A stretch of 64,000 bases of DNA from Christensenellaceae bacterium (lineage in GTDB: Bacteria; Bacillota; Clostridia; Christensenellales; Christensenellaceae). Below, piece by piece: positions 39,947 to 55,874 of the stretch. The position numbers and the translations under genes are program-made. The notes under the pieces were generated by a model that searched no databases, was not told the DNA's origin, and saw only the letters and a program-made list of their open reading frames with translations. How positions within the stretch are numbered: the stretch's first letter is position 1; each line of letters starts with the position of its first letter. Location of the stretch: assembly GCA_022846035.1 (NCBI GenBank), contig AP025580.1:1922001-1986000 (forward strand), read 5' to 3'.

Positions 39947-40164
39947 AAAAAATCCCTCCCAGTTCTCCCTGAACCATGACGCTTATGACGGGCATACTAT
40001 TTTTATGGCATTACTATTATCATAGACCTTTTTTACGAAAATGGGAAGCATAAAAATATTTTTTAATCCGGAACTTCAATGTACGTTAAAAAGGCCCTGC
40101 CCATGTAGACGGAACCCGGAAGAACGGACAAAGAAAAAAGGGGCTATCGCAGGAAAGCTAAAGA

Positions 40165-41037
40165 TTACACGGTCATACTCCTGATTTCAAAAGGAGTGTG
40201 ACCGTTCTTCGTTTGGATACGTTCAAAATTATAAAAATGTATGTATTCATGTATCAACATTTTTGCGTCTTTCATTGTTTGGATTTTTTGGCGGCGAATC
40301 CACTCGCTTTTGAGCATACCGAAAAAGTTCTCAGCCGGCGCGTTATCAAGCGGCGTTCCAGGTCTTGACATAGACGGCGTAATAGAATATTGTTTAAGTA
40401 GGTTTGAATACCCGTGGGACGTGTATTGGAACCCCTGGTCGCTGTGGAGGATGAGTCCATCAGCGACCTTTTTCTTTCCGCAAGGTAGGCTTCGCACTGC
40501 TTTTTGGATCGTTCTGTAGACAAGCGCGTTGTCCTGCACGGTACCCATATCATATGACACAATGAAATGATCATACAAATCTTTGATCATAGATAGATAC
40601 AACGTTCCCTCTTTGGTTTTGATATAGCTGATGTCGGTCACCCATTTCTGATTTGGCTGTTCAGCCGAGAAGTGACGGTTAAGGCGATTTGCATATACCA
40701 TCATCTGCCGTTGCCTTTGGTATAGCGGCCTCGGCCTGCGGATTACCGCAAGCAATCCATATTTGCGCATCACACGCAGTACAGCCTTGTGGTTTATGCA
40801 AAGACCGTGCTCCCGCTTAAGCCATAATCTTACGCGCCTATACCCATAGGTCTGTTTGGTTTGCTGCTGACATTGTTGTATCAGTCGTCCAATCACAGCG
40901 TCCCGATCAGTATCGCCTTGGCGGGAACGCCAACTGTAATATCCGCTGCGCGAAACCTCAAAGAAACGGCACATCAGCTTCACGGAATATTTGTTATGAT
41001 GCTTTTCGATCGCTGCATACTTTACCTTTGCACTCAC
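40165..41037 (-). CDS. IS3-family transposase OrfB (DDE integrase core)
   Basis: A 290-aa product with the rve integrase core: first Asp in WVTDISYIKTKEG, second Asp in LHSDQGFQYTSH, and Glu in ENFFGMLKSEW, i.e. an intact DDE triad. The N-terminal region has an HTH_21-like segment (LWLKREHGLCINHKAVLRVM). It begins with GTG at 41037 overlapping the orfA stop (GTGA), so it is made by coupling or by frameshifting to an OrfAB fusion. Apparently intact. Confidence 0.93.
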   Translation of the reverse strand: MSAKVKYAAIEKHHNKYSVKLMCRFFEVSRSGYYSWRSRQGDTDRDAVIGRLIQQCQQQTKQTYGYRRVRLWLKREHGLCINHKAVLRVMRKYGLLAVIRRPRPLYQRQRQMMVYANRLNRHFSAEQPNQKWVTDISYIKTKEGTLYLSMIKDLYDHFIVSYDMGTVQDNALVYRTIQKAVRSLPCGKKKVADGLILHSDQGFQYTSHGYSNLLKQYSITPSMSRPGTPLDNAPAENFFGMLKSEWIRRQKIQTMKDAKMLIHEYIHFYNFERIQTKNGHTPFEIRSMTV

Positions 41038-41321
41038 ATCCTTCCAGCAGCTTGAAGAAAAGACCGATACAGTTCCACTTCCATTTCTAATTGCTTAATC
41101 CTATCTCGATACTCTGCTTCGGTTGATATTGGACGTATTCGTGGACGTCCACGTTTTTTCGGCATGTTCCATATTCTGTTTTTTCTATTGTATCGTTCTA
41201 CTAATTTTTTAATTTGTGTCTTGCTTAATCCATACTCTTCTCCTATTTCACGGTGTGTCAGTCCTTGCTCCTTTTTCTTCATTACAGTTTCTATGATCTG
41301 CTTTCCATAGTGCTTTCCCAT
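41034..41321 (-). CDS. IS3-family OrfA (helix-turn-helix)
   Basis: A 95-aa protein with an HTH (GLTHREIGEEYGLSKTQIKK) and a C-terminal leucine-rich helix (IKQLEMEVELYRSFLQAAG) as in IS150-type OrfA. Its ribosome binding site AGGAGG is buried in the hairpin at 41330-41360. Confidence 0.9.
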   Translation of the reverse strand: MGKHYGKQIIETVMKKKEQGLTHREIGEEYGLSKTQIKKLVERYNRKNRIWNMPKKRGRPRIRPISTEAEYRDRIKQLEMEVELYRSFLQAAGRM

Positions 41322-41329
41322 ACAAAAAA

Positions 41330-41360
41330 CCTCCTATCGTTATTATCCTACGATAGGAGG
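41330..41360. terminator. hairpin sequestering the orfA ribosome binding site, with T-runs on both strands
   Basis: CCTCCTATCG and CGATAGGAGG form a 10-bp stem with an 11-base loop. On the minus strand AGGAGG is the orfA ribosome binding site and TTTTTT follows; on the plus strand CCTTTTTT follows. It can act as a terminator in both directions and hide the ribosome binding site in read-through messages. Confidence 0.7.
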
Positions 41361-41418
41361 CCTTTTTTCTCAATGTCCTTTTTTGGGGGGGCCGTCTACA
41401 TAACGCAGGGCCTTTTTT

Positions 41419-42465
41419 TTATAAATTTTCCTTGTAGCTTTCATAGATAGTCCGGCAGTTATCGCCCACCAGCTTGAGCGTCTCCGTCATCACCGGCGAA
41501 AACTTCTGAGCTTCGGCCGCCATCAGAGTACGCAGCGCCTGTTCATGGTTGCCGCCATATTTGCACATCAGCTCGTCGTATTGATGCGCAAGCGCCACCG
41601 CCTGCGCACAAATCGGAATATTGTCGCCCGAAAGTTTGTCCGGATAACCGCTTCCATCCCACCGTTCATGATGATACCGGCAGATATTGTAGCAATAATT
41701 TGCATATAATTCGTTTTCCAAGTTCTTAAGCGGATCGATAAGACGGCATCCTTTGATCGTATGCGTCATGAAGATCGCTTCTTCCTCCGGCGACAGCTTG
41801 TCCCGCTTGTTGACAATTGCCTCCGGCAGCATCAGTTCCCCTACGTCGTGCAGGATCGCCGCCATTCCCATCATTTCTATGGTTTGCGGCGTTAAGCTGT
41901 AGTTGTCGTCATAATACTCATAAATATACCTGAGGATTTCCTTGGTATACAGGCGGATACGCTGGATATGCTCTTTTGTCTCCATGGTCTTGGTTTCCAT
42001 AACGGATGTCAAGACAGCGACGATCATCTCATTAATATCCGAGAGGACCTCCGTCTTTTCCTCGATCGCCTCTTCCAGATGGTTCTGGTATTTGTAAAGA
42101 TCCATAAGCGTACGCACGCGGCGTTTGACAATGCCCGGGGCAAACGGCTTGCGGATATAATCCACCGCGCCCCGCTCAAGTCCTTTTTCTTCCATCTCGT
42201 CCGAGCCCGCAGCCGTGATCAAGATAACCGGAATATCCCGCAGAATATTGTGGAAACCCATATAATCCAGCACGTCATAACCGTTGACATCCGGCATAAT
42301 AACGTCTAATAGCACCATGGATATTTCATCTCTCTGCTTTTCTAAAATCTCCACCGCCTGCTGTCCGCCGTCAGCAGTCAAAATCTCGTATTCTTCTTTC
42401 AAAAGCTCCTGTAACATTTCGCGGTTGCTGTCAATATCGTCAACCACTAATATCTTATTCGCCAT
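41419..42465 (-). CDS. response regulator with HD-GYP phosphodiesterase output
   Basis: A 348-aa protein. Residues 1-125: receiver domain with phospho-acceptor Asp in VLLDVIMPDVNGYD and Lys in YIRKPFAPG. ~140-348: HD-GYP domain with ILHDVGELMLPE (HD pair) and HHERWDGSGYPDKLSGD (complete GYP signature), so active hydrolysis of cyclic-di-GMP is expected. It follows the HPt gene by 11 bases and is the output of the phosphorelay. Confidence 0.95.
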   Translation of the reverse strand: MANKILVVDDIDSNREMLQELLKEEYEILTADGGQQAVEILEKQRDEISMVLLDVIMPDVNGYDVLDYMGFHNILRDIPVILITAAGSDEMEEKGLERGAVDYIRKPFAPGIVKRRVRTLMDLYKYQNHLEEAIEEKTEVLSDINEMIVAVLTSVMETKTMETKEHIQRIRLYTKEILRYIYEYYDDNYSLTPQTIEMMGMAAILHDVGELMLPEAIVNKRDKLSPEEEAIFMTHTIKGCRLIDPLKNLENELYANYCYNICRYHHERWDGSGYPDKLSGDNIPICAQAVALAHQYDELMCKYGGNHEQALRTLMAAEAQKFSPVMTETLKLVGDNCRTIYESYKENL

Positions 42466-42476
42466 CCTGCCCCCCC

Positions 42477-42824
42477 TCAGTCTAACTCTTTGATAATATC
42501 AATTGCCTTCTGATAGGCCCGATCAAGCCCGTCCGTATCAATATCCTGCTTTCCCTGCCGCAGCTTATCCACTGCCTGTGCACTTTGCTCATAAAGCGTG
42601 CGCAGCCCTAAATTCCCCGCAAGCCCCTTGAGCGTATGGACGCTGAACTCTGCCTTCTCCCTGTCTCCCTGCTTTTGCGCCTCGCAAAACGCCTCATAAT
42701 GCGGATCATCCAGAAATCTGTTAAGGAATTTCAGGTAAAGCTCCTCGTTTCCGCACATTCGTTTCAACGCGTTTTCTACATCAATATCCTGCGGATACTT
42801 TTGGCCCGCCTCATCAATCGTCAT
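42477..42824 (-). CDS. HPt phosphotransfer protein
   Basis: A 115-aa four-helix HPt domain. The phosphorylated His is in FSVHTLKGLAGNLG, the canonical H-x-x-K-G-x-x-x-x-x-G pattern. It lies between the hybrid kinase and the HD-GYP regulator, so it should carry phosphate from the kinase's receiver to the regulator. Confidence 0.93.
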   Translation of the reverse strand: MTIDEAGQKYPQDIDVENALKRMCGNEELYLKFLNRFLDDPHYEAFCEAQKQGDREKAEFSVHTLKGLAGNLGLRTLYEQSAQAVDKLRQGKQDIDTDGLDRAYQKAIDIIKELD

Positions 42825-42858
42825 GTTTTCTCCCTCCCGCCATCCGGCTCCGCTTTCA

Positions 42859-45468
42859 TTATATCAAAAAATCCCTCAATACCGCAAAGACCACTTTCGC
42901 ATCGATGGGCTTTGCTACGTGCGCGTTCATACCGTTTTTGATGGACTCGGCTATGTCTTCCCGAAAAGCGTTTGCCGTCATTGCCACAATAACAATACTT
43001 TTGGCGTCGCGCTTCCCGCTTGCGCGAATGGCGCGCGTCGCCTCGTATCCATCCATAACGGGCATTTGTACATCCATCATGATCACGTCGTAATATCCCT
43101 CCGGCGCGTTTCGGTACATATCGAGCGCTTGCTGTCCGTCGCCTGCCGTTTCCACCGTAAAGCCCACATGTTCGCTTAAGGCCTGCCCGATTTCCCTGTT
43201 AATATCGCTGTCGTCCACCATCAACATTCGTTTTCCCGTGAAATCAAACGCCTCTTTTTCTTCTTCCCTGCCGCCTGAACCCTCGCCGTACATCTCTCCC
43301 AATATCCGGTAGACGTCCTCGCGCAGCACAGGTTTCTTTAAAAAGCTTGTAACGCCCGCGTCGCGCGCTTCCTGTTCTACGCGCTTGTAATCATACGCCG
43401 ACACCAACACAATCATAATCTTATTCCCGGCTTCATTCCTGATCCATTCCGCGGTGCGGATTCCGTCTACATCCGGCATATAAAGATCGACAAAGGCAAT
43501 ATCGAACGGTTCTTCCGAGTTTTTGAGGATATGCACGGCTTCCGCGCCCGAGGACGCGCTCTGCGTTTCAATGCCGAGTTGCTCGCACATCAGCTTCAGG
43601 TGCTCGCGCATTTCAATCTCGTCGTCCACCAACAGCACGCGCAGGCTCCTGAACCTATCCGGCGTCTTAAGCGGCGCGTCCGCAAAGGGAAGCCACAGGT
43701 CAAAAGAGAACTTACTGCCTTTCCCTGCTACGCTTTCAACATAAATGCTGCCGCCCATCGTTTCCACAAACGATTTAGAAAGTGCCATCCCAAGGCCCGA
43801 GCCGCCGAACTTGCGCGATATGGTTTCATCCGCCTGTTCAAACGGCTGGAATATCCTGTCCGTAAACTCCGGCTCCATGCCCATCCCGTTATCCGTGACC
43901 GAAAAGTTCAGACAGGCCGCGTTTCCGCGCTGCGCCATCTGGCGAATCACAAGCTTGATTTTCCCGCCCTCCGGCGTAAACTTGACGGCATTCGAAAGGA
44001 AATTCAGCAGCACTTGCCTGATTCGCAGCTCCGCCCCGATAAAATTATCGCTCGCAACATCGCGCAGCATAACGTCAAAAACCTGGCGCTTTTCTTCCGC
44101 TTTCGGTCCCATAATCATCGATATTTCAGAAAGCATGACGTTTAAGCTGAATTCCCGTTGCTCGAATTCCATCTTTCCGCTTTCGATCTTGGACGTATCC
44201 AGAAGATCGTTAATAAGTTCCAAAAGATGCTGGGCGGCAATATTGATCTTCCGCAAGTCTTCCTTGTTTTTCCTTTGGTCTCCGGAGTCGTTTTTCATGA
44301 CTTCCACAAGTCCGATGATCGTGTTTAGGGGCGTACGAATTTCGTGACTCATGCGCGATAAGAACTGCCGTTTTGCTTCGTTGGCCCTCTGCGCGGTGTC
44401 GACCGCCGATTCGAGCATCTTTTGCGAGGCCTTGACCGCCGTCATATCGCTGGTCACAAACACCTGCTTAATAACCCGCCCGTTATCGCAAATAGGATAT
44501 ATCTTACTGCGCAGCTCACGCTCTTCTCCAGTACGGGGATTGCGCAGCACAAAATCGTATGCCCCGATCTCTTTTTGCTCGCCAAGCGCCAACGAATTGC
44601 ATATCCTCATGAAATCGTCGTCGCTCAGGTAAGAACGCGCGATCCACATGTTATGCTTATAGTCCTCCGCAGGCAAGCCCAGGATGCGCTCGGCATTGTC
44701 GCTCAAATATTCCACCCGCTCACCCACGCAATCATAGATCATGAATACATCGTCCACATTTTCCGAAATAATCTGGAACAGCATATCGTTATGGTAAATA
44801 TCCTCGTTCTTTTTCGAAATCGTCCGTACGCTAAGGATGGACAGCAGCAGCGTCAGCGCAATGAGTACGCTGCCCCATACGAGCGCCATCAAATTGGTAC
44901 GCTCGTTAAGGTCCGTGGTAAGCTTCACATAATCCGCAATGTTCTGCTGTGAATCTTCCAGTACCTGCGCGATAATATCGTCCGCTTCCTGGTAGACCGG
45001 ATAGGCTTCGCCGTAGAGGATCGCCTGCGCTTCATCCACCTTTCCCTGATTGATCAGTTCGATGCATTCGTCGTGCAGTGCACGCAATTTTTCAAAATCG
45101 TCGACCAGCGTTGTGATCATTTGAGGATCGCCCTGATACTGTTCCCGGAGCGTACGCTCGATCGCTATCTGCGTTTTTCGGTATTCATGCATTATTTCCA
45201 GGTTTTTCTGCTGGTTGTCCCGATAATTGCTGTCTGTCAGCATGTTGAGCATTGTATTGCGCGCGAACAAAATCTGCATACGCATATTCCACGCCGCTTC
45301 GTTAACGGCATATGGTTCCTGATATATTTCATTTGCGTACCGCGCTAAATTATCCGTATTCATAATCGTCATGCCTGTAAACGCAGCCACGCCGATAGAA
45401 ATGATCAAGACGGCCACTACAAGAATTGTATTGATATTCTTAAGCTTCCATCTCTTCTTGTTCCCCAT
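42859..45468 (-). CDS. membrane hybrid sensor histidine kinase with two receiver domains
   Basis: An 869-aa protein. TM1 at residues ~12-33, a periplasmic-type four-helix (4HB_MCP-like) sensor of ~160 residues rich in Gln/Asp/Glu, TM2 at ~195-215, PAS at ~225-345, HisKA with phospho-His in FLSRMSHEIRTPLNTIIGL, HATPase with VLLNFLSNAVKFT, DNGMGMEPEFTDRIF and FGGSGLGMALSK, then two receivers with Asp in IAFVDLYMPDVDG and VIMMDVQMPVMDG. This is the start of a phosphorelay whose HPt and HD-GYP partners follow directly. The ligand is unknown; the sensor type suggests a small molecule. Confidence 0.94.
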   Translation of the reverse strand: MGNKKRWKLKNINTILVVAVLIISIGVAAFTGMTIMNTDNLARYANEIYQEPYAVNEAAWNMRMQILFARNTMLNMLTDSNYRDNQQKNLEIMHEYRKTQIAIERTLREQYQGDPQMITTLVDDFEKLRALHDECIELINQGKVDEAQAILYGEAYPVYQEADDIIAQVLEDSQQNIADYVKLTTDLNERTNLMALVWGSVLIALTLLLSILSVRTISKKNEDIYHNDMLFQIISENVDDVFMIYDCVGERVEYLSDNAERILGLPAEDYKHNMWIARSYLSDDDFMRICNSLALGEQKEIGAYDFVLRNPRTGEERELRSKIYPICDNGRVIKQVFVTSDMTAVKASQKMLESAVDTAQRANEAKRQFLSRMSHEIRTPLNTIIGLVEVMKNDSGDQRKNKEDLRKINIAAQHLLELINDLLDTSKIESGKMEFEQREFSLNVMLSEISMIMGPKAEEKRQVFDVMLRDVASDNFIGAELRIRQVLLNFLSNAVKFTPEGGKIKLVIRQMAQRGNAACLNFSVTDNGMGMEPEFTDRIFQPFEQADETISRKFGGSGLGMALSKSFVETMGGSIYVESVAGKGSKFSFDLWLPFADAPLKTPDRFRSLRVLLVDDEIEMREHLKLMCEQLGIETQSASSGAEAVHILKNSEEPFDIAFVDLYMPDVDGIRTAEWIRNEAGNKIMIVLVSAYDYKRVEQEARDAGVTSFLKKPVLREDVYRILGEMYGEGSGGREEEKEAFDFTGKRMLMVDDSDINREIGQALSEHVGFTVETAGDGQQALDMYRNAPEGYYDVIMMDVQMPVMDGYEATRAIRASGKRDAKSIVIVAMTANAFREDIAESIKNGMNAHVAKPIDAKVVFAVLRDFLI

Positions 45469-45855
45469 AACATACCCCTACTTATATTATATGCTGAACG
45501 CCGAAAAAATATTCTCGGGAATATAAGAACATCACTTTATATGTATTCGATACCTGCGTGCCTTTTCCCTGTTGTTTTTGGCCTGAATCCAAAACAAATT
45601 ATGCTGTAAATACCTTTAGCCATTATATATTTCTTTTTCGGTAATATTTATATAATATAACCCAATACCGTTTCCCTGTAACAGCCTTTTCGCTTTTTCC
45701 AAATCAAAAGGCGCGGACATGTCCGCGCCTTTTTCTCAGATAGCTGCACTTTTACGCATAAAACGCTCCGCTCGGCGGATATTCACCCAAAAAGAGTCCA
45801 AAGGCTATTTTCCAGTGTGACGGCGTGGCAGCAAAATACGCCGTATATGGTTTTA
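45469..45855. other. gap between histidine kinase and TnpB-like gene
   Basis: Contains a TATAAT-like box (45486-45491, minus strand) before the kinase gene, an A/T-rich stretch, the 28-base perfect palindrome terminator at 45706-45733, and a ~120-base transcribed but non-coding tail (45735-45855) after the TnpB-like gene. No gene seen. Confidence 0.6.
45706..45734. terminator. bidirectional terminator ending the hydrogenase operon
   Basis: AAAAGGCGCGGACAT followed by its perfect reverse complement and T-runs on both strands. It ends the minus-strand transcript 120 bases after the TnpB-like stop codon. Confidence 0.88.
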
Positions 45856-47418
45856 TCACATGTCCACGATCGCGATTTCTTCTCGCGGATTCGTGATGCC
45901 GATAAACTTTTTATAATAGCTGATCTTTTTCGCGCCGGCACGCAGGGGAACGCTTTCTGCCAGCTTCCACTTTTCCACCAACTGCGCGATATATTCATAA
46001 AAGCCGTCCACTGCTTCGCGCGTATAATCCGTTTCGTAGCGAATATCGAGCATTTCGTTTGTAAACGTAATACGTCCATGCTTTATGCTCGCCTTAAAGG
46101 GCAGCAGCGAACCGCCGTATTTCCTTAAACGCTGCGCGGCGTTCAGCGCGCCCACGCGCTCGATTTCCCCTGTATACCCACACCGGATACACATGAATTT
46201 ATCGTGCATGAAACGGTTTTTCATGGTATGCACGCCGCAGCGCGGACAGGTATAAAAAAGTCCGCGCGGGCTCACCGCGACCGGCTTTTTAAGCCCCGCA
46301 AGCTCTGCCTTGTAGGTAATCATCGCGTTTAACTTATTAAACTGTCCGGCTGTCAGGGCCGCCAGGCAATTATCCCGTGAAAGCTGATCCCCCAGGCTGC
46401 CCAGATGATAACTGACAATCCGGCTTTCATACTGCCGCGCGATACCGACAATACTTTTTGCCGCAATATGAAAATCATTTTTCTCCGGCGGCTGCGGCAT
46501 CATAAGTTCGCGCTCCAAAAGCACCGCGCCCTCCCCGTCCGTCACCGTATAACGCGCCGCGCATGAAATGCCGCGTACGATCCCCAGCGTTGTTCTGCCT
46601 GGAATTCTCTCCGTTGTATTGACCGCAACGCTCACCAGCAGGTAATATTCCCCGTTCTTTTCCTTGAGGCGCGCCGTTTTGAACATAGTCGGGTCCTTGC
46701 GCCCCTGCTCCAGCACCTCTTTTTGCTTTTTCCCAAACGAGAGGGGCACCACCAGGTAGCGTTCACGCTTATTATCCTCGGCCAGGTAACCGCCGTCCTT
46801 TGAAATATAGGCCAGCCTGTTGCCGCCGCGCTTCAGTCCGCCGCGCCGGTCCTCATCCTTGACGCTCATCAGGTACAGCTTTGCATAGTATCTGCCGCTT
46901 TGTTCGTCGTAAAGCAGGCAATAGTCCCTGTTTTTCGCATAACGCCCGAAAAGCACGGGCTTTTTCATGCGCAAGCCCTCGTAAAGCTTTTTTAGCTGCA
47001 GCCCCAGCAGGCGGCGGGAAAGGCCGCCGTTCCCGTACCGTTCGACCAATGCATAAAACGCGTCGTCAAATTTCTTCCCGTCCCTTACGACCTGTGGATA
47101 GCCTGCATGCTGCGTCCGCCTGAGCGCAAGGTAAGCGATCATAGTCATCGCATAATCCAGTTTCAGGGAATCCTTAAAGGGTTGTACGCCAAACACATTG
47201 AGCGCATCCATCAGGTCCTTTGAAAGAAGCGAGGTGATCCTGCGCGACAAAAAACTCCCGCCGCTGTGCATCTCGCTCTCGATCTCCGGAATATTGTCTT
47301 TGGTATGCTCAAACAGATAACCGATCGCGTCGTTGTAACGCTCTATCGCGCGGTCCAGCACCCGCTTTTTTTCAGCAGTCGGTTTATGCAGTTTCAATAC
47401 GAGCGTCTTGATTACCAT
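45856..47418 (-). CDS. TnpB/Cas12-like protein with apparently inactive RuvC site
   Basis: A 520-aa intact frame. The N-terminus (MVIKTLVLKLHKPTAEKKRV, then LDRAIERYNDAIGYL) is of TnpB/Cas12 type. The RuvC-like core and zinc ribbon lie at ~275-430: CPRCG (C391, C394) and CIRCGY (C410, C413) are intact. The three catalytic positions look replaced: RuvC-I is TTLGIVRGI with Val281 where GID is expected, RuvC-II is RIVSYHLG with Tyr337 for Glu, and RuvC-III is GEIERVGALNAAQ with Glu420 for Asp. It is longer than usual TnpB (~400 aa), has no adjacent TnpA and no element ends. ATG directly follows the phosphatase stop (TGA ATG), so it is part of the hydrogenase operon. A nuclease-dead RNA-guided regulator (TldR-like) is the leading idea; a decaying transposon gene is the alternative. 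Confidence 0.72.
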   Translation of the reverse strand: MVIKTLVLKLHKPTAEKKRVLDRAIERYNDAIGYLFEHTKDNIPEIESEMHSGGSFLSRRITSLLSKDLMDALNVFGVQPFKDSLKLDYAMTMIAYLALRRTQHAGYPQVVRDGKKFDDAFYALVERYGNGGLSRRLLGLQLKKLYEGLRMKKPVLFGRYAKNRDYCLLYDEQSGRYYAKLYLMSVKDEDRRGGLKRGGNRLAYISKDGGYLAEDNKRERYLVVPLSFGKKQKEVLEQGRKDPTMFKTARLKEKNGEYYLLVSVAVNTTERIPGRTTLGIVRGISCAARYTVTDGEGAVLLERELMMPQPPEKNDFHIAAKSIVGIARQYESRIVSYHLGSLGDQLSRDNCLAALTAGQFNKLNAMITYKAELAGLKKPVAVSPRGLFYTCPRCGVHTMKNRFMHDKFMCIRCGYTGEIERVGALNAAQRLRKYGGSLLPFKASIKHGRITFTNEMLDIRYETDYTREAVDGFYEYIAQLVEKWKLAESVPLRAGAKKISYYKKFIGITNPREEIAIVDM

Positions 47419-48591
47419 TCAGCAATACTCAATCTCTACGTCTTTTCCCATCGCGCGCATGATCTGCACGATATCCTTTACCAGCCGCAGTTTCAGGCTC
47501 AGGTCAATGGGAAGATCGGGGTTCTGGTGGGCGGGATTTAAGGCCCTTCCCACGATAAAGTGCGCGCGGGTGCAATCCTCCAGCAATATCTTAGCCAGCC
47601 GCGATGCGCCGTCGTCCTTGTATAAATTGAAAATATCGTCCATATCGCTGGCAGACGACATATACTTTTGCATAATCTCCATCGTCTTTGCCAGCGTCAC
47701 AACGCCCTCCGTCACAAGGTCTATCCCGTCGATAATGCCAACCGGCGGCACGCCCGGATCCTTATAATCAATCTTCACCTTTAAATCCCTGCCCGAAATC
47801 CGGCTCACAATCTGGGAGGTCGTCCCGCCGCAGATAACTTTCAGGCCGTCCACACACAGCAGGCGCCTGACGATCTCTTCATCGCGCGCACTGTCTACCG
47901 GCGGTCCCACCATGATGTGGGCGGGGCGCGACTTGCGTATTTTCGTAGTCACAAACGTGGTATCATCGCCCGGCTTTTCGTCGTAAAGCGAATCACACGC
48001 GGACAAAAGCAGCTTCGTCATCGCGCGGGCGGGCATATCTTTCTTATAGGCGCGGCACGCATATTCCACGATGTTTTCGCGCTGCCAGCCAAAATTCAAA
48101 AGCTGACCTACGCCCGCATGGATAGCGCCGTCCGAAAACGCGATGCACATATCGCCCTCTTTCATCTCAAAACGGCTTTCGAGAATTTTCTTGTCGCCGA
48201 TCTCAATCTCTTCCTTTTCGATCGAGACTTCTTTCCCGTCCCGCACGAGAATCACCTGCGGATTGTCAAACTCCACAAGGTGCGCCTGCCCCGACTGACC
48301 TACGCGCAAAATCGTAAACGTGCAATAGGCAAGCCCGCGCACGCTGCATACAGGAAGCGTAGACGCCACCGTCTCTACCGTCTCATATATATCCGCGCCG
48401 TCGGCGAGCATGGTCGCGGCGATCTTCGAGGTGAGCGTCGAGAGTATGTTGGCCTTGACCCCGCTTCCGAGGCCGTCCGCGAGGACGATGGTAACAACGT
48501 CACCTTTACGTACGATTTCTACCTTATCGCCGCAAAGCTCCTCGCCAAATTTAAAAAGGCTATCGTTGCTCGTCTCAATAAATACGCTCAT
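47419..48591 (-). CDS. SpoIIE/PP2C-type serine/threonine phosphatase of the hydrogenase operon
   Basis: Start set at ATG 48591 (MSVFIETSNDS), inside the end of the sensor hydrogenase gene (17-base overlap) with AGGAG upstream; the longer frame is antisense-like Arg-rich. The 390-aa product has PP2C metal-binding acidic motifs VLADGLGSG, IAFSDGAIHAG and KPGDDTTFVT. After residue ~230 is a further domain (from IMVGPPVDSARDEEIVRRLL) without recognised motifs. Phosphatases of this kind accompany group C (sensory) [FeFe] hydrogenases. It would relay the sensor's signal by dephosphorylating a partner; the substrate is unknown. Confidence 0.88.
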   Translation of the reverse strand: MSVFIETSNDSLFKFGEELCGDKVEIVRKGDVVTIVLADGLGSGVKANILSTLTSKIAATMLADGADIYETVETVASTLPVCSVRGLAYCTFTILRVGQSGQAHLVEFDNPQVILVRDGKEVSIEKEEIEIGDKKILESRFEMKEGDMCIAFSDGAIHAGVGQLLNFGWQRENIVEYACRAYKKDMPARAMTKLLLSACDSLYDEKPGDDTTFVTTKIRKSRPAHIMVGPPVDSARDEEIVRRLLCVDGLKVICGGTTSQIVSRISGRDLKVKIDYKDPGVPPVGIIDGIDLVTEGVVTLAKTMEIMQKYMSSASDMDDIFNLYKDDGASRLAKILLEDCTRAHFIVGRALNPAHQNPDLPIDLSLKLRLVKDIVQIMRAMGKDVEIEYC

Positions 48592-50293
48592 CTTCGCTCT
48601 CCTGGATATATTTCTTAAGGTTCGTGAGCGCGATCTTGGTTTCCGCCGTCGTTTCCCCCAGCAGGCTTGCGATCTCCTGCGCCACGCGCATCTGCTTGTC
48701 GATGACCTTTTGCGTGACCTCCACCGTCTCCGCGCGCATTTCATTCATCTTCTGCTGCTGGTGCTCGTCCTCCGTAATATCCTTGATCAGCAGCAGGTAA
48801 ATGGAGTTTTCTTTGATGAAGATAGTGGACTGCTCCACCGTAATATCAAGGTCTCTATAATATACCTTACGGTCGTAGATATTTTCTCCCGTTTCCTTTA
48901 CCTCGTCGATGTCGTCGCAGTCGATAATCATGGAAATCGGCCTGCCCACATAATTTTTTTTGTTGAGTTTAAAAAGATCTGCCGCCGCGCTGTTATATTC
49001 CATAAGATTGAAATCGCCGTCCAAAATAACGATGGCATTGGGCGTGTTGTCCAGCACCACATTGGAAATACTTTCCGCTTTTTCGCGCATGAACGGCAGG
49101 CACATGCGCATATCCGCCTTGCCCTGCAATACCGCGATTGCTTTGTCCCGACAAGTCGAATAGCCACAGCCGCCGCAATTCAGTATCTTATCGTCGCTTG
49201 TTTTTCCCATACGCAAAAACACCTGTTGGATCTCTTCCTCGGTAGGCTCGTGCCGCTTAGGAACGCGGTTTTCGTACTGCCAATGAAGATCGAGCCGCGT
49301 ATCCTCCGATACCGGCGCGAGCTTGCCGCTGCGGTTTTTCACATATTTGAGCGTATTGTCTTTGGACTGCAAATATGCCGGACTGCATTCCTTAAGGCCC
49401 GGCCCTCCAAGGCAGCTTCCCGGGCATGCGTTCATCTCAAGGAAATAGTTCGTGATTTCCCCGTCCTTTAAGGAGTCCAGTATTTCCACGCAGCGGTCGA
49501 TACCGTCAATGGCGACGCATTTATAATTAGCGCGCGCCTGCTTGTCCAGTGTCTGGATAATACCGCCTGGAATAGGATACAAGCGGTTGATCGTGGCTTT
49601 CATCTCACGCACGTCTCCGTCTTCCTGCTCTAAATCGATACCCTCTTCTTTCAGCCAGTTCATCACTTCGTCAAAGAGCAGCACCGCGTCGATCGCGCCG
49701 CCGCCTTTTTCTTCCTGCGCCTCGTGTATTTTTGAGATACACGGACCGATGAAAACTGTTTTAATACGGTTTCCGTATACTTCTTTCATCATCTTGCCGT
49801 GCGCCGTCATGGGGGCGGCTACAGGCGCCAGATACTTGATCAGCTCCGGATAGTATTTTTCTACCAGCAGCACAAGCGTCGGGCAGCAGGTCGTGATGAT
49901 ATTGCCCATCTTATGCTCTTTCATCAACTCTTCAAAGTTACGGCTTACCTGCGCCGCGCCGATCGACGTTTCCTCTACGCCCGTAAAGCCCAGTTTTTTG
50001 AGAGCTGCCGAAATTTTGGGGAACGTCGCGTCCTTATAGCAGCTTGCAAAGGACGGCGCCACGGATACATACACCTTCTCGCCGTTTTTGATATATCCCT
50101 TTACAATATCAAGGCTGGAGTTGATGAATTTCGCGTTCTGCGGGCAGGCAAGGAAGCAATGTCCGCACAAAATACACTCCCTTTCGGTGATCTCCGCCTG
50201 CTCGTTTCTGAAAGCGATGGATTTCACCTGGCAGCTCCTGATACATTTATAACAGTTTTTGCAATTTGCTTCTTTGAATTGAATGATACTCAT
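48575..50293 (-). CDS. group C-type [FeFe] hydrogenase with PAS domain (putative H2 sensor HydS)
   Basis: A 572-aa protein. Residues 1-60: two [4Fe-4S] ferredoxin motifs. ~75-330: H-cluster domain with altered motifs: TTCCPTL (usual TSCCP), GPCISKIHE (usual MPCxxKxxE) and EMNACPGSCLGGPG. ~360-410: an extra Cys-rich cluster motif NCGGCGYSTCRDKA. ~415-520: PAS domain (VVLDNTPNAIVILDGDFN). No histidine kinase domain. The order H-cluster, Fe-S, PAS, plus downstream PP2C phosphatase, matches sensory hydrogenases thought to report hydrogen rather than turn it over. Stop overlaps the phosphatase gene. Confidence 0.88.
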   Translation of the reverse strand: MSIIQFKEANCKNCYKCIRSCQVKSIAFRNEQAEITERECILCGHCFLACPQNAKFINSSLDIVKGYIKNGEKVYVSVAPSFASCYKDATFPKISAALKKLGFTGVEETSIGAAQVSRNFEELMKEHKMGNIITTCCPTLVLLVEKYYPELIKYLAPVAAPMTAHGKMMKEVYGNRIKTVFIGPCISKIHEAQEEKGGGAIDAVLLFDEVMNWLKEEGIDLEQEDGDVREMKATINRLYPIPGGIIQTLDKQARANYKCVAIDGIDRCVEILDSLKDGEITNYFLEMNACPGSCLGGPGLKECSPAYLQSKDNTLKYVKNRSGKLAPVSEDTRLDLHWQYENRVPKRHEPTEEEIQQVFLRMGKTSDDKILNCGGCGYSTCRDKAIAVLQGKADMRMCLPFMREKAESISNVVLDNTPNAIVILDGDFNLMEYNSAAADLFKLNKKNYVGRPISMIIDCDDIDEVKETGENIYDRKVYYRDLDITVEQSTIFIKENSIYLLLIKDITEDEHQQQKMNEMRAETVEVTQKVIDKQMRVAQEIASLLGETTAETKIALTNLKKYIQESEDERIY

Positions 50294-50322
50294 ACTTTAC
50301 CTCTTTTTACACCGATTCCGCC

Positions 50323-50565
50323 TCACACCCTGGCGAGCACCTGGTTTTTGAAGAACTCGCCCACGTTGTCCGAATTGACGGAGAATACTTCCTCGCCGAT
50401 TTGTACGGAAACCGCGTCCGTGCAGTGTCCGAGACAGAATACGCCCGTAAGCTCCACCTCGTCGCCCAGTTTATGCTCCTCGATCATCTCCTGCAGCTCG
50501 CTCACCACGTTGTAAGACCCTTTCAGGTGGCATGCGCTCCCGATACATACGCTGATTGTCATCAT
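50323..50565 (-). CDS. thioredoxin-like [2Fe-2S] ferredoxin
   Basis: An 80-aa protein of the NuoE-like thioredoxin-fold ferredoxin type. The four ligand cysteines are in CIGSACHLKGS and FCLGHC. It overlaps the end of hydA by four bases (start at 50565) and precedes the sensor gene. It could pass electrons between the bifurcating hydrogenase and the sensor; this role is inferred from position. Confidence 0.9.
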   Translation of the reverse strand: MMTISVCIGSACHLKGSYNVVSELQEMIEEHKLGDEVELTGVFCLGHCTDAVSVQIGEEVFSVNSDNVGEFFKNQVLARV

Positions 50566-52286
50566 GATTTTGTTCCCTCCCCTTTTGTGTAATTAACGTG
50601 CAGCAGTTCGTGCACCTTATTTTTCAAAATCCCACTATACAGTGACATCATAACCGGATTTTCTTCCGAACGCTTGACCTGGCATAGCTTGTCCGCGTCG
50701 TACAGCCCCCTTGAGCGTTCCTGTTTTCCCTCCTGGCGGGCAAATGGCTGCCCCGCGCCCGCAATACAGCCGCCCGGACATGCCATAACTTCCACAAAGT
50801 CGTAGCTTGCCTTGCCGCTTTTGATCTTCCCGATCAGCCGCTCCGCGTTTAAAAGGCCGTTTACAACCGCGATCTTTATGCGTTTATCCTCGCCAAACGG
50901 AATATTCGCTTCTTTTGTACCGTCAAGGCCGCGCACGCCCGTATAGGCAATGTTGTGCAGCATGTTATTGCTCTTGTCGTCCACCACACGGCGGATAACC
51001 GCTTCCGCCACGCCGCCCGTCACACCAAAGATGACGCCCGCGCCGGACGTAATGCCAAACGGCATGTCCGCAGCCTCCGGCTCGATGTCCTCGAACACGA
51101 TGCCCGCCTGTTTTAAGATACTGGCAAATTCCTGTGTGGTGATAACGCCGTCCGTATCCCGCGATCCGTCTGCATGGATAAATTCCGGCCGTACCTGCTC
51201 ATCCTTTTTGGCCGTGCACGGCATGATGGCAAACACGACCGTTTCCTTGCCGTCCACTTCTTTCACCTGCTCAAAATGCTCCTTGATCACAGCCGAGAAA
51301 ATCTGCATGGGCGATTTGCATGTAGACACCTGTCCCATCAGCTCGGGGTGCGTATTTTCCGCATATTTGACCCATGCGGGACAGCAGGACGTAAACAACG
51401 GCAACTGCGTTCCCTCTTTATATTTCTTCAAAAACTCTTTCGACTCCTCCATGACCGTCAAATCTGCGCCCATCGTCGTATCGTAAACCTCGTCCACGCC
51501 CATCTTCCTAAGCGCGCCTACAATTTTTCCGGCAACGTTTACGCCCGGTTCCAGCCCAAACTCGTCGCCCAGCGCCACGCGTACGGCAGGCGCAAACTGT
51601 ACGACCACGCGCTTGGTGTCGTCATAAAGCGCGTCCCAGAATTTCTGCGTGCAGTTGCGGATAACGATCGCGCCCGTCGGGCATACCGACGCACACTGTC
51701 CGCAGTTGACGCAGTTTGTTTGCGCAAGCGGCTTGCCCCACGCTGTCGAAACCGTCATATTGGAACCACGGTGCGCAAAGTCGATCGCTCCTACATTCTG
51801 AATTTCCGAGCACATGCGCACACAGTCGCCGCATAGGATACACTTGGATTCATCGCGGATGATAGACAACGCCGAATCGTCTACCCGCGCTTCTTTTTTG
51901 GTGTTTTCAAAGCGCACGCTGTCGATACCGAAGCGAAGCGCCAGTTCCTGCAGGCGGCACTTGCCGTTTTTGGGACACGTCGTACAATCGCGGCAGTGGC
52001 TTGCCAGCAGCAGCTCCAAAATCATCTTGCGGTGGCGAAATAGCTGCGGCGTATTGGTCTTAATTTTCATTTTATCGCGCGGCGGCGTGGAGCACGAGGC
52101 GATAACGCCGCCCCATTCGTCCTCCACCACGCACATACGGCACGCCCCGTAAATGGACAGATCGGAATAGTAACAGAACGTGGGCAGCTCGATACCCGCC
52201 TTGCGGATGACCGCCAAAATATTCTGCTCGTCATCATAATTTACGATCTGTCCGTCTATAATCATATGCTTTTTATCAGTCATCAT
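50562..52286 (-). CDS. hydA: [FeFe] hydrogenase catalytic subunit HydA
   Basis: A 574-aa enzyme reducing protons with electrons from NADH and ferredoxin via the bifurcating complex. N-terminal [2Fe-2S] domain (YSDLSIYGACRMC), a His-Cys3 [4Fe-4S] motif (HCRDCTTCPKNGKC), two [4Fe-4S] motifs (CILCGDCVRMC, CVNCGQCASVCPTGA), then the H-cluster with all three signatures: TSCCPAW, MPCTAKKDE and MACPGGCIAGAGQP. The C-terminal small-subunit-like tail (SLYSGILKNKVHELLH) is complete. It follows hydB by nine bases. Confidence 0.97.
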   Translation of the reverse strand: MMTDKKHMIIDGQIVNYDDEQNILAVIRKAGIELPTFCYYSDLSIYGACRMCVVEDEWGGVIASCSTPPRDKMKIKTNTPQLFRHRKMILELLLASHCRDCTTCPKNGKCRLQELALRFGIDSVRFENTKKEARVDDSALSIIRDESKCILCGDCVRMCSEIQNVGAIDFAHRGSNMTVSTAWGKPLAQTNCVNCGQCASVCPTGAIVIRNCTQKFWDALYDDTKRVVVQFAPAVRVALGDEFGLEPGVNVAGKIVGALRKMGVDEVYDTTMGADLTVMEESKEFLKKYKEGTQLPLFTSCCPAWVKYAENTHPELMGQVSTCKSPMQIFSAVIKEHFEQVKEVDGKETVVFAIMPCTAKKDEQVRPEFIHADGSRDTDGVITTQEFASILKQAGIVFEDIEPEAADMPFGITSGAGVIFGVTGGVAEAVIRRVVDDKSNNMLHNIAYTGVRGLDGTKEANIPFGEDKRIKIAVVNGLLNAERLIGKIKSGKASYDFVEVMACPGGCIAGAGQPFARQEGKQERSRGLYDADKLCQVKRSEENPVMMSLYSGILKNKVHELLHVNYTKGEGTKS

Positions 52287-52295
52287 AATCCTCCG

Positions 52296-54170
52296 TTAAA
52301 ACTGCTCGGTGACAGCGCCAAAGCTGCAAGCGTCAGCGCACGCGCCGCACTTAATACATTTATCCTGGTCAATGATATAAGGCTTCTTGATCTCACCCGC
52401 AATCGCCCCCACCGGACACGCTCGCGCACATTTGCTGCATCCTTTGCACTGCTCACTTACAATCACGTACCTCTTCATCGCCTGGCAGTTTTTCGCCGGA
52501 CATTTTTTATCCACGACGTGCTTAAGGTACTCGTCTTCAAAATATTTGAGCGTACTGATAACAGGCGATGGCGCCGTCTTTCCGAGGCCGCACAGCGCGG
52601 TCTTGGAGATGGTATCCGCCAGCTCGCGCAGCATATCAAGGTCTTCCTCTTCTCCCTTGCCCGCGACGATACGTTCCAAAATCTCCAGCATACGCATCGT
52701 ACCCTCGCGGCACGGTACGCATTTGCCGCATGATTCGTTTTGTGTGAAGTTCATAAAAAAGCGCGCCACTTCGACCATGCAGGTATCCTCGTCCATAACG
52801 ACGAGGCCCCCCGAGCCGATCATCGCTCCCGCTTTTTTGAGCGAGTCAAAGTCAAGCGGCAGGTCAAGATGTTCTTTGGTAAGGCATCCGCCCGAGGGGC
52901 CGCCGATCTGCACCGCTTTGAATTCCTTTCCGTTTTTAACGCCGCCACCAATATCGAAAATGATCTCGCGCAGCGTCGTGCCCATCGGCACTTCGATAAG
53001 GCCTGTGTTGTTGACGTTGCCCGTTAAGGCGAAAGCCTTGGTTCCCGGGCTTGATTCCGTTCCCATCCCGCGATACCAATCAGAGCCGTTTAGAATAATC
53101 ATTGGGATGTTGGCGTATGTTTCTACATTGGAAAGCACCGTCGGCTTGCCGAACAACCCCTGCTCCACCGTACGCGGGGGTTTGACGCGCGGCATGCCAC
53201 GGTTTCCTTCAATGGAAGCCGTCAGCGCGCTGCCCTCTCCGCATACGAATGCGCCCGCGCCCTGGTTAATCCTGAGGTCAAAGGCAAAGCCGCTCCCGAG
53301 AATGTTCTCTCCCAAAAGGCCCTCTTTACGCGCGGCAGCGATAGCCGTCTGCAACCGCTTGACTGCCAACGGATATTCCGCCCGCACATAAATATAGCCT
53401 TCGTGGGCGCCTGTCGCGATACCCGCGATCATCATCCCCTCGATCATACGGTGTGAATCGCCCTCCATGATGCTCCTGTCCATAAACGCGCCCGGGTCGC
53501 CTTCGTCGCCGTTGCACACCACATATTTCATAGGCTCCGCCTGCCGCGCGACCTGCTGCAGCTTGCGTCCTGTAGGAAAACCGCCGCCTCCGCGTCCGCG
53601 CAGGCCGCAGTCGAGGATTTCCTGCACAATAGCCTCCGGCTGCATATCGAAAAGCGCCTTTGCAACCGCCTGGTAGCCGCCGCGCGCGATATATTCCATC
53701 AAAGATTCCGTATCCGTATGCCCGCAGTTGGAAAGCACCATCCGAGTCTGCTTACTGTAAAAGGGAATGTCCTCCTGTGCGGCATACGCCTTGCCGTCCT
53801 GCGTAAACAGCAGGCGCTCCACCGGTTCGCTGCCCACAAGGCTCTTTTCCAGAATCTCTTCGCAATCTTCCGGCGCCACCTTGACGTACAGCCAGCCGTG
53901 CGGCTCAATGCGCAGCAACGGTCCCATTTCGCAAAATCCGTGACAGCCGCTCTTCTTAAAAGCGATCTCCTCGTGCGGCTCCGCTTTCAGTTCCACCGAC
54001 ACAGGGAGGCCTTTTTGTTCTGCGAGTTCCTTTAGACACTCATAGATTTCCAGCGATCCGCCCGCCACACAGCCTGTGCCCGCACAAACCAGCACTTTCT
54101 TATATTGCGCGTCAAGCGATTTTTTGTATTGCTCTTTCGTTTGATTCAGCTCTGTTATATTTTGTATCAT
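52296..54170 (-). CDS. hydB: NADH-binding/bifurcating hydrogenase subunit HydB (NuoF-like)
   Basis: A 624-aa flavoprotein. Residues ~25-115: thioredoxin-like [2Fe-2S] domain (CAGTGCVAGGS and GCHGFCEMG). ~150-470: NuoF domain with GRGGGGFPTGRK (FMN) and CNGDEGDPGAFMDR (NADH). ~470-560: [4Fe-4S] site ESCGKCVPCREGTMR. C-terminus: two ferredoxin motifs (CKGCSKCARACPVGA, CIKCGACADACSFGA). This is the electron-confurcating core accepting NADH. Located between hydC and hydA. Confidence 0.97.
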   Translation of the reverse strand: MIQNITELNQTKEQYKKSLDAQYKKVLVCAGTGCVAGGSLEIYECLKELAEQKGLPVSVELKAEPHEEIAFKKSGCHGFCEMGPLLRIEPHGWLYVKVAPEDCEEILEKSLVGSEPVERLLFTQDGKAYAAQEDIPFYSKQTRMVLSNCGHTDTESLMEYIARGGYQAVAKALFDMQPEAIVQEILDCGLRGRGGGGFPTGRKLQQVARQAEPMKYVVCNGDEGDPGAFMDRSIMEGDSHRMIEGMMIAGIATGAHEGYIYVRAEYPLAVKRLQTAIAAARKEGLLGENILGSGFAFDLRINQGAGAFVCGEGSALTASIEGNRGMPRVKPPRTVEQGLFGKPTVLSNVETYANIPMIILNGSDWYRGMGTESSPGTKAFALTGNVNNTGLIEVPMGTTLREIIFDIGGGVKNGKEFKAVQIGGPSGGCLTKEHLDLPLDFDSLKKAGAMIGSGGLVVMDEDTCMVEVARFFMNFTQNESCGKCVPCREGTMRMLEILERIVAGKGEEEDLDMLRELADTISKTALCGLGKTAPSPVISTLKYFEDEYLKHVVDKKCPAKNCQAMKRYVIVSEQCKGCSKCARACPVGAIAGEIKKPYIIDQDKCIKCGACADACSFGAVTEQF

Positions 54171-54195
54171 ACCGTTATATTCTCTCCTAAGCGGT

Positions 54196-54657
54196 TTATT
54201 TCAGCGTGTCCAGCAACTCGCACGCCGATTCGGGTGTCATGGCCGGATAGACCTTGTCATTGACTGTTAAAACAGGCGCGAGGCCGCACGCTCCCAGGCA
54301 TGAAACCGTTTCCACCGTATAAAGCATGTCTTCTGTCGTTTTCTTTTTATCTGTTAAATGCAGCTTTTTGCGGAGCGCGTCTAAAATCGGTATGGACTTA
54401 CGCACATGGCACGCTGTACCGTCGCAGATCTTGATTACGTATTTTCCCTTGGGTTCTAATGAAAAGTTTTCATAAAAGGTGGCAATGGAGTAGACTTTTG
54501 CTTCGCCGACGTTCAGCATTTTCGCGACATACGAAAGCGCTTCTTTGGGCAGATAGCGGTAATTCTTCTGTATATCCTGCAGAATCGGAATGATTTCCGA
54601 CCGTTTGTTGTGCTCGCTCAAAATCTCGTCGAGCTTTTGCTTCATCTCAAGGTCCAC
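54196..54657 (-). CDS. hydC: hydrogenase subunit HydC (NuoE-like [2Fe-2S])
   Basis: A 153-aa thioredoxin-like [2Fe-2S] protein with ligands in CDGTACHVRKS and CLGACGLAP. The N-terminal helical region (LSYVAKMLNVGEAKVYSIAT) matches NuoE. First gene of the hydrogenase operon, 26 bases before hydB. AGGAGGAGTT precedes the ATG. Behind a Rex-regulated promoter. Confidence 0.96.
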   Translation of the reverse strand: MDLEMKQKLDEILSEHNKRSEIIPILQDIQKNYRYLPKEALSYVAKMLNVGEAKVYSIATFYENFSLEPKGKYVIKICDGTACHVRKSIPILDALRKKLHLTDKKKTTEDMLYTVETVSCLGACGLAPVLTVNDKVYPAMTPESACELLDTLK

Positions 54658-54697
54658 GTTTTAACTCCTCCTGTTTTTCCGCACATTCCGCGGCATA

Positions 54698-54715
54698 TTG
54701 TTAAATTATTAACAT
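54698..54715. promoter_or_regulatory. Rex operator upstream of hydCBA
   Basis: TTGTTAAATTATTAACAT matches the Rex consensus TTGTTAAnnnnTTAACAA at all but the last base. It covers about +8 to +25 relative to the predicted start site, so Rex bound at low NADH would block transcription. Confidence 0.85.
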
Positions 54716-54723
54716 ACGGTTCT

Positions 54724-54752
54724 ATTTTATATGATTTCATACTATTAGGCAA
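54724..54752 (-). promoter_or_regulatory. promoter of the hydrogenase operon
   Basis: On the minus strand TTGCCT (54747-54752) and TAAAAT (54724-54729) are 17 bases apart and immediately precede the Rex operator. Confidence 0.65.
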
Positions 54753-54790
54753 CATAGGATATGGTTTTTTGATAAAAACTTTTTGTAAAT

Positions 54791-54819
54791 AAAAAGAAGC
54801 ACAGCATGTGCTTCTTTAC
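54791..54819 (-). terminator. terminator of the DeoR-family gene
   Basis: AAAGAAGCACA and TGTGCTTCTTT form an 11-bp stem with a three-base loop; on the minus strand TTTTTATTT continues the run. It insulates the regulator from the hydrogenase promoter. Confidence 0.8.
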
Positions 54820-54844
54820 TTCAAAGATATGCGTATATTTTCTC

Positions 54845-55597: not shown

Positions 55598-55773
55598 CGC
55601 CGACAATCCCCGCTCTTTTTCTTCTCATTATGCATGTATTATACCATTTACGGTACCGTTATGTAAATTCTCATGACAAATCTTACTATCATATAGAAAA
55701 ATTTTTAAATTTTTTTATATTTGAACATTTTTTGAATAAATTCCGCAAATGCGAAGATATCGCATTTTTTAAA

Positions 55774-55787
55774 TGAACGCACGTTCA
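55774..55787. promoter_or_regulatory. TetR-type operator, distal copy
   Basis: TGAACGCACGTTCA is a perfect 14-base palindrome about 50 bases upstream of the -35 box of the radical SAM gene. It shares half-sites with the copy at 55875-55889. Confidence 0.65.
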
Positions 55788-55836
55788 CAGAGTGTCCATT
55801 TTATCCTCAAAAGCCCATTAAAAAGCCTTTTTTGCC

Positions 55837-55865: not shown

Positions 55866-55874
55866 ATACATTAA

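Follow-up and report, generated by a model that had tools for sequence, protein, structure and literature searches.

The 64,000-nucleotide stretch of a Christensenellaceae bacterium genome analysed here and called the window (GenBank assembly GCA_022846035.1, contig AP025580.1, positions 1,922,001 to 1,986,000) carries a hydrogenase operon which ends with a gene for a TnpB/Cas12f-like protein, whose RuvC nuclease centre is dead to judge from its residues, and with a structured RNA directly behind this gene. It is probable that the two form an RNA-guided transcription factor resembling the TldR proteins, which would control its own hydrogenase genes, probably with input from the sensory hydrogenase HydS and a PP2C phosphatase. 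TnpB-derived RNA-guided transcription factors are a recent discovery (PMC13418256; this paper, PMC5707799 and PMC11837493 are cited for the part of their text that was available). If the proposal is true, RNA-guided control would have entered the core energy metabolism of several Clostridia families, with a possible hydrogen or redox input, and this bears on how gut bacteria, Christensenella among them, turn over hydrogen.

The gene and the codons of its three catalytic positions are located as follows.

45856-47418, minus strand: coding sequence of the nuclease-dead TnpB/Cas12f-like protein, 520 amino acids, recognised in Pfam, NCBIfam, PDB-sequence and Foldseek comparisons and present in 6/6 genomes of the genus.
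46576-46578, minus strand: codon of Val281, where the RuvC Asp of the intact relative is lost (V2 T4 A4 G2 S8 in 20 family members, Asp in none).
46408-46410, minus strand: codon of Tyr337, where the RuvC Glu of the intact relative is lost (Y6 Q9 K3 E2 of 20).
46159-46161, minus strand: codon of Glu420, at the position of the second RuvC Asp of the intact relative (E13 D6 G1 of 20).

The reading frame is complete from 47418 to 45856 on the minus strand, the plus strand being interrupted by stops, and its ATG at 47418 comes immediately after the stop codon of the phosphatase gene PP2C (TGAATG); both the complete frame of the TnpB/Cas12 type and its junction with the phosphatase gene had been noticed in the preliminary description of this DNA, made from the sequence alone. 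The comparison with TnpB and Cas12 profile families suggested there gave 33 bits for Pfam PF07282 (Cas12f1-like_TNB), above the cut-off of 26.3, and for NCBIfam guided_TnpB an E-value of 4.4e-9 with 36.1 bits, far below the cut-off of 100. TnpB or Cas12f was the match in the Pfam, NCBIfam, PDB-sequence and PADLOC comparisons, mostly over the last third of the protein. The AlphaFold model built on a 20-row alignment of relatives reached pLDDT 82.7 and pTM 0.61, superseding a poor one from the six genus sequences alone (pLDDT 60.5), and its top Foldseek matches were Cas12f and TnpB complexes, each over about 480-500 columns (E 1.8e-14 for 7wju and 1.6e-8 for the TnpB structure 8h1j), with modest TM-scores by query length, 0.42 for the first match and 0.20-0.45 among the 50 matches listed. 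The protein is basic (isoelectric point 9.61). Its gene is present in one copy in the one-contig 2.77-Mb genome, where PF07282 was found above cut-off nowhere else. The ratio of nonsynonymous to synonymous substitution rates (dN/dS) in four pairs was 0.17 for the window pair, where it rests on a saturated dS (1.35), and 0.11, 0.08 and 0.09 for the others. Because the frame is kept in all six genus genomes in the same operon with dN/dS of 0.08-0.17, it appears to be under purifying selection and is neither a chance frame nor a decaying one, which agrees with the earlier remark that no decay was visible.

The closest intact relative found is a Pseudoalteromonas spongiae plasmid protein, annotated as an RNA-guided endonuclease TnpB family protein, with 26.9% identity to the window protein over 276 residues. 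Sequence alignment with this relative, by which the catalytic positions were placed, sets its MGIDRG against LGIVRG of the window protein, VVIEDL against IVSYHL, and ADIVGALN against IERVGALN, so that all three residues of the RuvC triad are altered in the window protein and Val281, Tyr337 and Glu420 stand, as had been proposed, where the intact relative has Asp, Glu and Asp. As to Glu420, the position was right, while the change is conservative and 6 of the 20 relatives retain Asp; the third acid is thus mostly kept or conservatively changed, being Asp or Glu in 19/20. A shifted reading with Ala424 of an NAA motif as the third residue was ruled out, since the intact relative puts it at 420. 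Nine further members, from later genomes which took no part in building any model (G1188 was excluded there as the genome of L025), have Ser or Ala at position 281 in 9/9, and altogether the first Asp is lost in 29/29 full-length members and the second Glu in 26/29, while Arg282 next to the first position was invariant in the 20 and the four zinc-ribbon cysteines (391, 394, 410 and 413 in the window protein, described as intact from the beginning) are kept in 20/20 and 9/9. In the two collections searched the nearest intact TnpB relatives were found on a marine plasmid (L203, 3001-3894), with the IDRG and VGALN motifs, and in Pseudoalteromonas phage J2-1 (MF370964.1); these plasmid and phage relatives are a possible outgroup.

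The structured RNA and the promoter motif treated below were missing from the preliminary description and are the key addition of this analysis. The RNA features are the following.

45735-45844, minus strand: guide-RNA-like (omega-RNA-like) structured RNA, 45.1 bits and E 1.4e-7 with covariance model R1 built without this genus.
45828-45832, minus strand: 5' side of the pseudoknot, GCUGC, in the loop of stem P1, covarying with the 3' side in other loci.
45743-45747, minus strand: 3' side of the pseudoknot, GCAGC, placed by covariation and the covariance-model alignment.
45735-45742, minus strand: candidate guide UAUCUGAG, the beginning of the guide, directly after the pseudoknot and matching promoter sites of relatives.
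45706-45733, minus strand: strong hairpin of 12 pairs, a possible terminator by its fold, which the consensus terminator scan did not flag.

An RNA ending in GCAGC-UAUCU lies directly 3' of the TnpB-like gene in 29/29 loci, with a common layout of a stem with the GCUGC loop, a CUUAC/GUAAG or UCCGC/GCGGA hairpin, a variable hairpin, GCAGC-UAUCU and a further hairpin; a pseudoknot immediately before a short variable end is likewise the arrangement of TnpB guide RNAs. The structure was derived from 12 of 14 sequences from outside Christensenella (L065 and L026 were left out), in whose alignment pairing is kept in 92.1% of cells and 12 of 24 pairs are changed on both sides (mean 7.9 in shuffled alignments, reached in 4 of 500). 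Cells changed on both sides numbered 37, as against 14.0 in the shuffles and at most 7 with partners slid, while the count of further pair types was not unusual (22 and 19.6 in shuffles, reached in 71 of 500). All cells of the pseudoknot are paired (100%), two of its pairs differ on both sides, and it covaries across families together with three helices. The model recovers five other Christensenella RNAs and that of L026, none in its training, and finds the RNA at 9/9 later loci; over 18 genomes (11 had given model rows, 7 had not; 150 candidates per genome scored) it gave one match each at E <= 0.01, always beside the gene, and in the window genome 45735-45844 was the only such match among the 150 scored of 820 first-look candidates. 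At 40 phosphatase loci without the gene two weak matches were obtained, L156 (25.9 bits, E 0.014) and L158 (19.6 bits), the former taken as chance, being AT-rich and lacking the loop motif. In Rfam no family came near its gathering score for this RNA. A TATAGTATAAT stretch stands between gene and RNA, immediately ahead of the latter, in L016, L018 and L019, and hints at a separate promoter for the RNA in some Christensenella.

The strict motif AAACC[AGT]TAT[CT]T joins a block resembling a target-adjacent motif (TAM) to a match of the UAUCU in the RNA, the orientation being that of TnpB and Cas12, where the TAM lies 5' of the match. It was found upstream of hyd operons, on the operon strand, in 13 of 20 carrier loci and in 0 of 40 without the gene (Fisher p 1.5e-8 for this pooled and unequal comparison), and on the opposite strand in neither group; the controls are 40 of the 95 phosphatase-positive genomes lacking the gene, mostly the best-scoring ones. 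Taken separately, the counts are 6/20 and 0/40 upstream of Fdx/HydS (p 0.00077) and 9/16 and 0/5 upstream of hydC (p 0.045). Over whole stretches the carriers have 20 forward and 2 reverse occurrences in 378 kb and the controls 3 and 2 in 583 kb. In G567, G474 and G448 one site starts 23 nucleotides (nt) before a TTGAC box and a second 53-54 nt before it, the sites thus standing in tandem about 30 nt apart, and single sites lie 52 nt (G501) and 54 nt (L025) before such a box; a palindrome like a Rex operator is also present in hyd promoters. At the later loci, one of them on a short contig (G1161), seven show the hydC start, with ACC[AGT]TATCT upstream in six and the strict motif in three, and the sequence upstream of hydC in G1183 reads GCCGTATCT. 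G544 also carries a second site, ahead of another hydCB operon in a different part of the contig (L144).

At loci with a site, the locus's own guide, read as the RNA from UAUCU onward, matches it over 3-10 nt (4-10 nt in the comparison of 14 genera), with 10 nt in G448, 8 in G474 and G544, 7 in G478 and G1163, and 3 in G744, and with a longer match seen by eye in G1162 (TATCTAAC). Guide and site depart together from the common form in L026 (UAUUU/TATTT) and G1163 (UAUCUUA/TATCTTA). The permutations were run on all 17 loci with a site, on two sets of nine (one per genus) and on 14 genera, with relatedness uncorrected; guides re-dealt among the 14 genera gave p 0.0005 under strict matching.

In the window itself the candidate target region is as follows.

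54757-54770, minus strand: candidate target, AAAAAACCA (TAM-like) followed by TATCC, some 108 nt before hydC, with a 4-nt guide match and one wobble.
54701-54714, minus strand: TGTTAATAATTTAA, a Rex-operator-like palindrome in the hydC promoter.

The word AAAACCATATC occurs once in the 64-kb window, at the candidate target, where 0.04 occurrences are expected, and the sister genome G005 has AAAAAACCA-TATCT at the same position upstream of hydC.

Several observations weigh against this reading. The pooled comparison covers 29607 bases at 20 carriers and 38582 at 40 controls, hence a longer sequence per locus in the carriers, and a hydC start is present in only five of the 40 controls; a looser pattern turns up often by chance (17/20 and 12/40, and 15/20 on the opposite strand), and when wobble is tolerated the permutations are weak (p 0.019 for 14 genera, 0.039 and 0.048 for nine). 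In G744 the guide reads TATCT and the site TATTT (a match of 3 nt), in G1183 the guide reads TATCC and the site TATCT, G1170 shows no site where it was read, at Fdx/HydS, and the nearly invariant UAUCU could be part of the RNA scaffold. Among the six Christensenella genomes the strict motif is present in one (G005), G002 carries only TTTTTCCA-TATCC, and no target site was seen in the promoters of G001, G003 and G004. The exact AAAACCRTATCT has 76 sites over 18 genomes as against 60 for the reversed control, and AACCNTATCTG shows no genome-wide excess in the six Christensenella, 33 sites against 46; therefore the signal is one of place and not of number. Of the 76 AAAACCRTATCT sites, 12 belong to the hyd loci of the carriers themselves and one to the second hydCB operon of G544; eight of the ten whose frames were read are inside frames, and no wider regulon is claimed. 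Of the 33 AACCNTATCTG sites 30 were read, and 26 of these lie inside frames by a crude call of open reading frames; L220 (G000) and L233 (G001) have AACCNTATCTG sites in promoter-like stretches, which are not shared. According to these data targeting appears to be supported for the family by sequence comparison, and is only suggested in the window's own genus, where the site is weak or absent.

The most serious alternative accepts the ribonucleoprotein as real and supposes that AAAACC[AGT]TATCT is read by a co-occurring transcription factor of the protein type, UAUCU being scaffold and the resemblance a coincidence. This would fit the near invariance of UAUCU in the RNA, the shortness of the match beyond it in many loci and the weak wobble-tolerant permutations; against it stand the absence of the strict motif upstream of Fdx/HydS in all 40 loci without the gene, the orientation expected for TnpB/Cas12, the co-variation of guide and site in L026 and G1163 and the longer matches in G448, G474, G544 and G1162, which together make it unlikely. 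It is more improbable still that the ribonucleoprotein acts on RNA, such as the leaders of hyd mRNAs, or in processing or antitermination, and not on promoter DNA: the RNA does lie at the 3' end of the operon it would control and the protein is basic, but in G567, G474, G448, G501 and L025, where a TTGAC box is visible, the first target base precedes it by 23 or 52-54 nt, so that these sites would fall outside the mRNA made from that promoter.

Control of hydrogenase promoters by an RNA-guided protein is also consistent with the constancy of the gene's place. The operon of the window, listed in the order of coordinates, contains the following genes besides the TnpB-like one.

47419-48591, minus strand: PP2C/SpoIIE-type phosphatase, 390 amino acids with the start as in relatives (PF07228, 3.5e-16 on a longer 441-amino-acid frame).
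48575-50293, minus strand: HydS-like [FeFe] hydrogenase with PAS domain, 572 amino acids (PF02906, FeS, PAS).
50323-50565, minus strand: small 2Fe-2S protein (PF01257).
50562-52286, minus strand: HydA, [FeFe] hydrogenase catalytic subunit (PF02906, 7.3e-90).
52296-54170, minus strand: HydB, NuoF-like subunit (PF01512).
54196-54657, minus strand: HydC, NuoE-like subunit, at the head of the operon (PF01257).

The order of transcription is HydC, HydB, HydA, the small 2Fe-2S protein, the HydS-like protein, PP2C and the TnpB-like gene. In all six Christensenella genomes, the window's included (named relatives are C. hongkongensis, C. intestinihominis and C. sp. Marseille-P2438), the gene stands in the same operon with 50-69% identity to the window protein, and remoter members with 31-35% identity occur in Caproiciproducens faecalis, a Clostridia metagenome-assembled genome and further Clostridia families. 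The survey of neighbourhoods proposed at the outset found HydS and PP2C genes upstream in 20/20 full-length loci and in 9/9 later genomes (within about 150 nt in six and within 2.9 kb in three); all 29 thus stand at hydrogenase loci, and scattered transposon copies without this linkage were not what was seen. The class search of 391 genomes gave 19 matches, 15 of full length, all 15 among the 110 genomes with the phosphatase, the other 95 of which lack the gene; the weak partial matches G512, G524, G750 and G760, like G006 and G017 of the family search, were excluded as ordinary TnpB proteins matching in part. The order-level search (7/396, six Christensenella and one weak partial) and the phylum-level search (1/398, the window's own) added no full-length member. 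In a phosphatase tree of 60 loci the carriers stand in three places, 13 together and Christensenella and L026 apart, L026 having a short and divergent phosphatase (241 amino acids); a single gain by descent with the phosphatase is unsupported, since the carriers form no single clade, and therefore either an older linkage was retained with losses elsewhere or the linkage arose more than once. The suggestion that the gene is a domesticated hydrogenase-linked regulator is supported in its interpretation by the linkage in 29/29, the covarying RNA and the promoter motifs absent from the non-carrier loci read, while regulation itself and hydrogen sensing are still a matter of what we infer.

In L025, L057, L058 and L059 a gene of 867-868 amino acids lies between PP2C and the TnpB-like gene, and that of L057, the one scanned of the four, is an AdhE-type aldehyde/alcohol dehydrogenase by Pfam, which echoes the hfsB-adhE link published for Thermoanaerobacterium. 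In many of the 40 loci without the gene (L145-L184; uncounted) a further HydA-type match or HydC-HydB-HydA follows PP2C, so that the place now held by the dead TnpB may be that of an hfsD-like gene.

That the protein is a plain DNA-binding or scaffold component of a HydS/PP2C complex, with the RNA as a terminator-linked element of the 3' untranslated region without guide function, would explain why some Christensenella genomes have no recognisable target, but the covariation of the pseudoknot and three helices over families and the RNA behind the gene in 29/29 loci leave it a very slight chance. A still active RNA-guided nuclease, or a remnant of an IS605-type element, has the least to be said for it: the full-length TnpB/Cas12f fold with its zinc ribbon and the Asp or Glu at the third position in 19/20 are set against the loss of the first Asp in 29/29 and of the second Glu in 26/29, purifying selection, the 29/29 loci at hydrogenases, the single copy, the lack of any confirmed relative in viral contigs, and phage and plasmid matches (2 and 12 records) that are all partial, 0 covering 80%, so that an active nuclease or transposon copy is rejected.

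According to the mechanism which we propose for RNA-guided control, a domesticated, catalytically dead TnpB, still of the Cas12f/TnpB fold, would carry a guide RNA of its own, derived from the structured RNA that follows the gene at the 3' end of the operon. The ribonucleoprotein would form and bind DNA, uncut, at the TAM-like block (A-rich, then ACC[AGT]) and a short match of the RNA end, which in most loci would comprise UAUCU and 0-5 further bases, upstream of the promoters from which the hydrogenase operons, and with them its own gene, are transcribed. Binding would change hydrogenase transcription, probably together with the redox repressor Rex, and HydS and the PP2C phosphatase, encoded just upstream, would be the likely source of a hydrogen or redox signal. 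As for the sign of regulation, sites that lie upstream of the -35 element and not over it are no less compatible with activation than with repression. An activator, or an activator/repressor switch, guided by a very short natural sequence, placed 23 and about 53 nt upstream of -35, acting with Rex and set by the HydS/PP2C hydrogen sensor, is a possible form of this control, offered tentatively; if it is true, a core metabolic operon found across Clostridia would contain RNA-guided gene control that responds to a signal.

The surroundings of the operon contain several further genes. Downstream of the TnpB-like gene, at 41422-45468 on the minus strand, there are a hybrid histidine kinase, an Hpt protein and an HD-type response regulator; frames that begin alike come after the locus in the five other Christensenella genomes, while in the other families read no kinase match comes directly after the locus, save a weak one in L061. 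An rve-type transposase with a small upstream frame, which we take to be IS3-like, occupies 40165-41321 on the minus strand, about 4.5 kb from the TnpB-like gene, and is unrelated to TnpB; it amends the preliminary description, whose statement that TnpA is absent holds for the 13 window proteins scanned with Pfam. In Caproiciproducens faecalis (L026, 14261-15818) a sigma-70-type factor and an RsgI-like anti-sigma gene lie 2.7 kb downstream of the TnpB-like gene.

With regard to known systems, the fold and the C-terminal RuvC/zinc-ribbon similarity are common to this protein and the CRISPR Cas12f and TnpB (OMEGA) nucleases, while the catalytic triad is missing and the guide is nearly conserved in the hydrogenase-linked family. 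No CRISPR-like array was found in window positions 40000-56000, the stretch searched, and the hallmark of IS605/IS607 elements, several copies with TnpA beside TnpB, is absent, the gene being single and without TnpA among the 13 proteins. The AlphaFold model is also matched by nuclease-dead Cas12f (PDB 9n9c, 9n9m), likewise a dead Cas12f-type protein with guide RNA, which presumably has a sigma-factor partner. The mode of action could be like that of this dead Cas12f if the upstream position of the sites means activation; the difference is that no sigma factor is seen as a shared neighbour, with one in L026 and no dedicated sigma search made.

On the hydrogenase side, the HydS-type hydrogenase with PAS domain (HfsB) of Thermoanaerobacterium adjoins the serine phosphatase HfsC, and a HydS-type hydrogenase sensor with PAS domain is described in Ruminococcus albus (PMC5707799, PMC11837493). 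The window locus follows the pattern of a HydS-type sensory hydrogenase with PAS adjoining PP2C and differs in the dead TnpB and RNA after the phosphatase, of which the available text of both papers makes no mention. When the HydS homologue hfsB of Thermoanaerobacterium is deleted, adhE is expressed more strongly, through a pathway that is only partly understood (PMC5707799), and an RNA-guided factor could supply this missing output of the HydS/PP2C sensor. In the open-access literature searched, a scope outside which the main TldR/TnpB classification papers lie, no published link between TnpB and hydrogenases was found, and the papers checked that name both draw no link in the parts of their text available.

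The closest comparison is with TldR (PMC13418256), whose clades are linked to fliC and csrA, with flagellin control as the worked example, where repression was tested. The hydrogenase-linked family resembles TldR in the RuvC inactivated as judged from residues, TnpB descent, the putative guide RNA encoded beside the gene, a lasting link to non-transposon genes away from any transposon context, and a short seed; its short guide is no obstacle, because TldR works in vivo with guides down to 6 nt in length (PMC13418256). It differs from TldR as described in the available text in that the partner is a HydS-type hydrogenase with PP2C and not flagellin or csrA, that where the promoter is readable the sites lie upstream of -35, with a longer TAM-like block, and that the hydrogenase operon carries its own candidate target. 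In summary, the protein and its RNA would work like TldR, and what appears to be new is a hydrogenase-linked variant of the nuclease-dead TnpB regulators.

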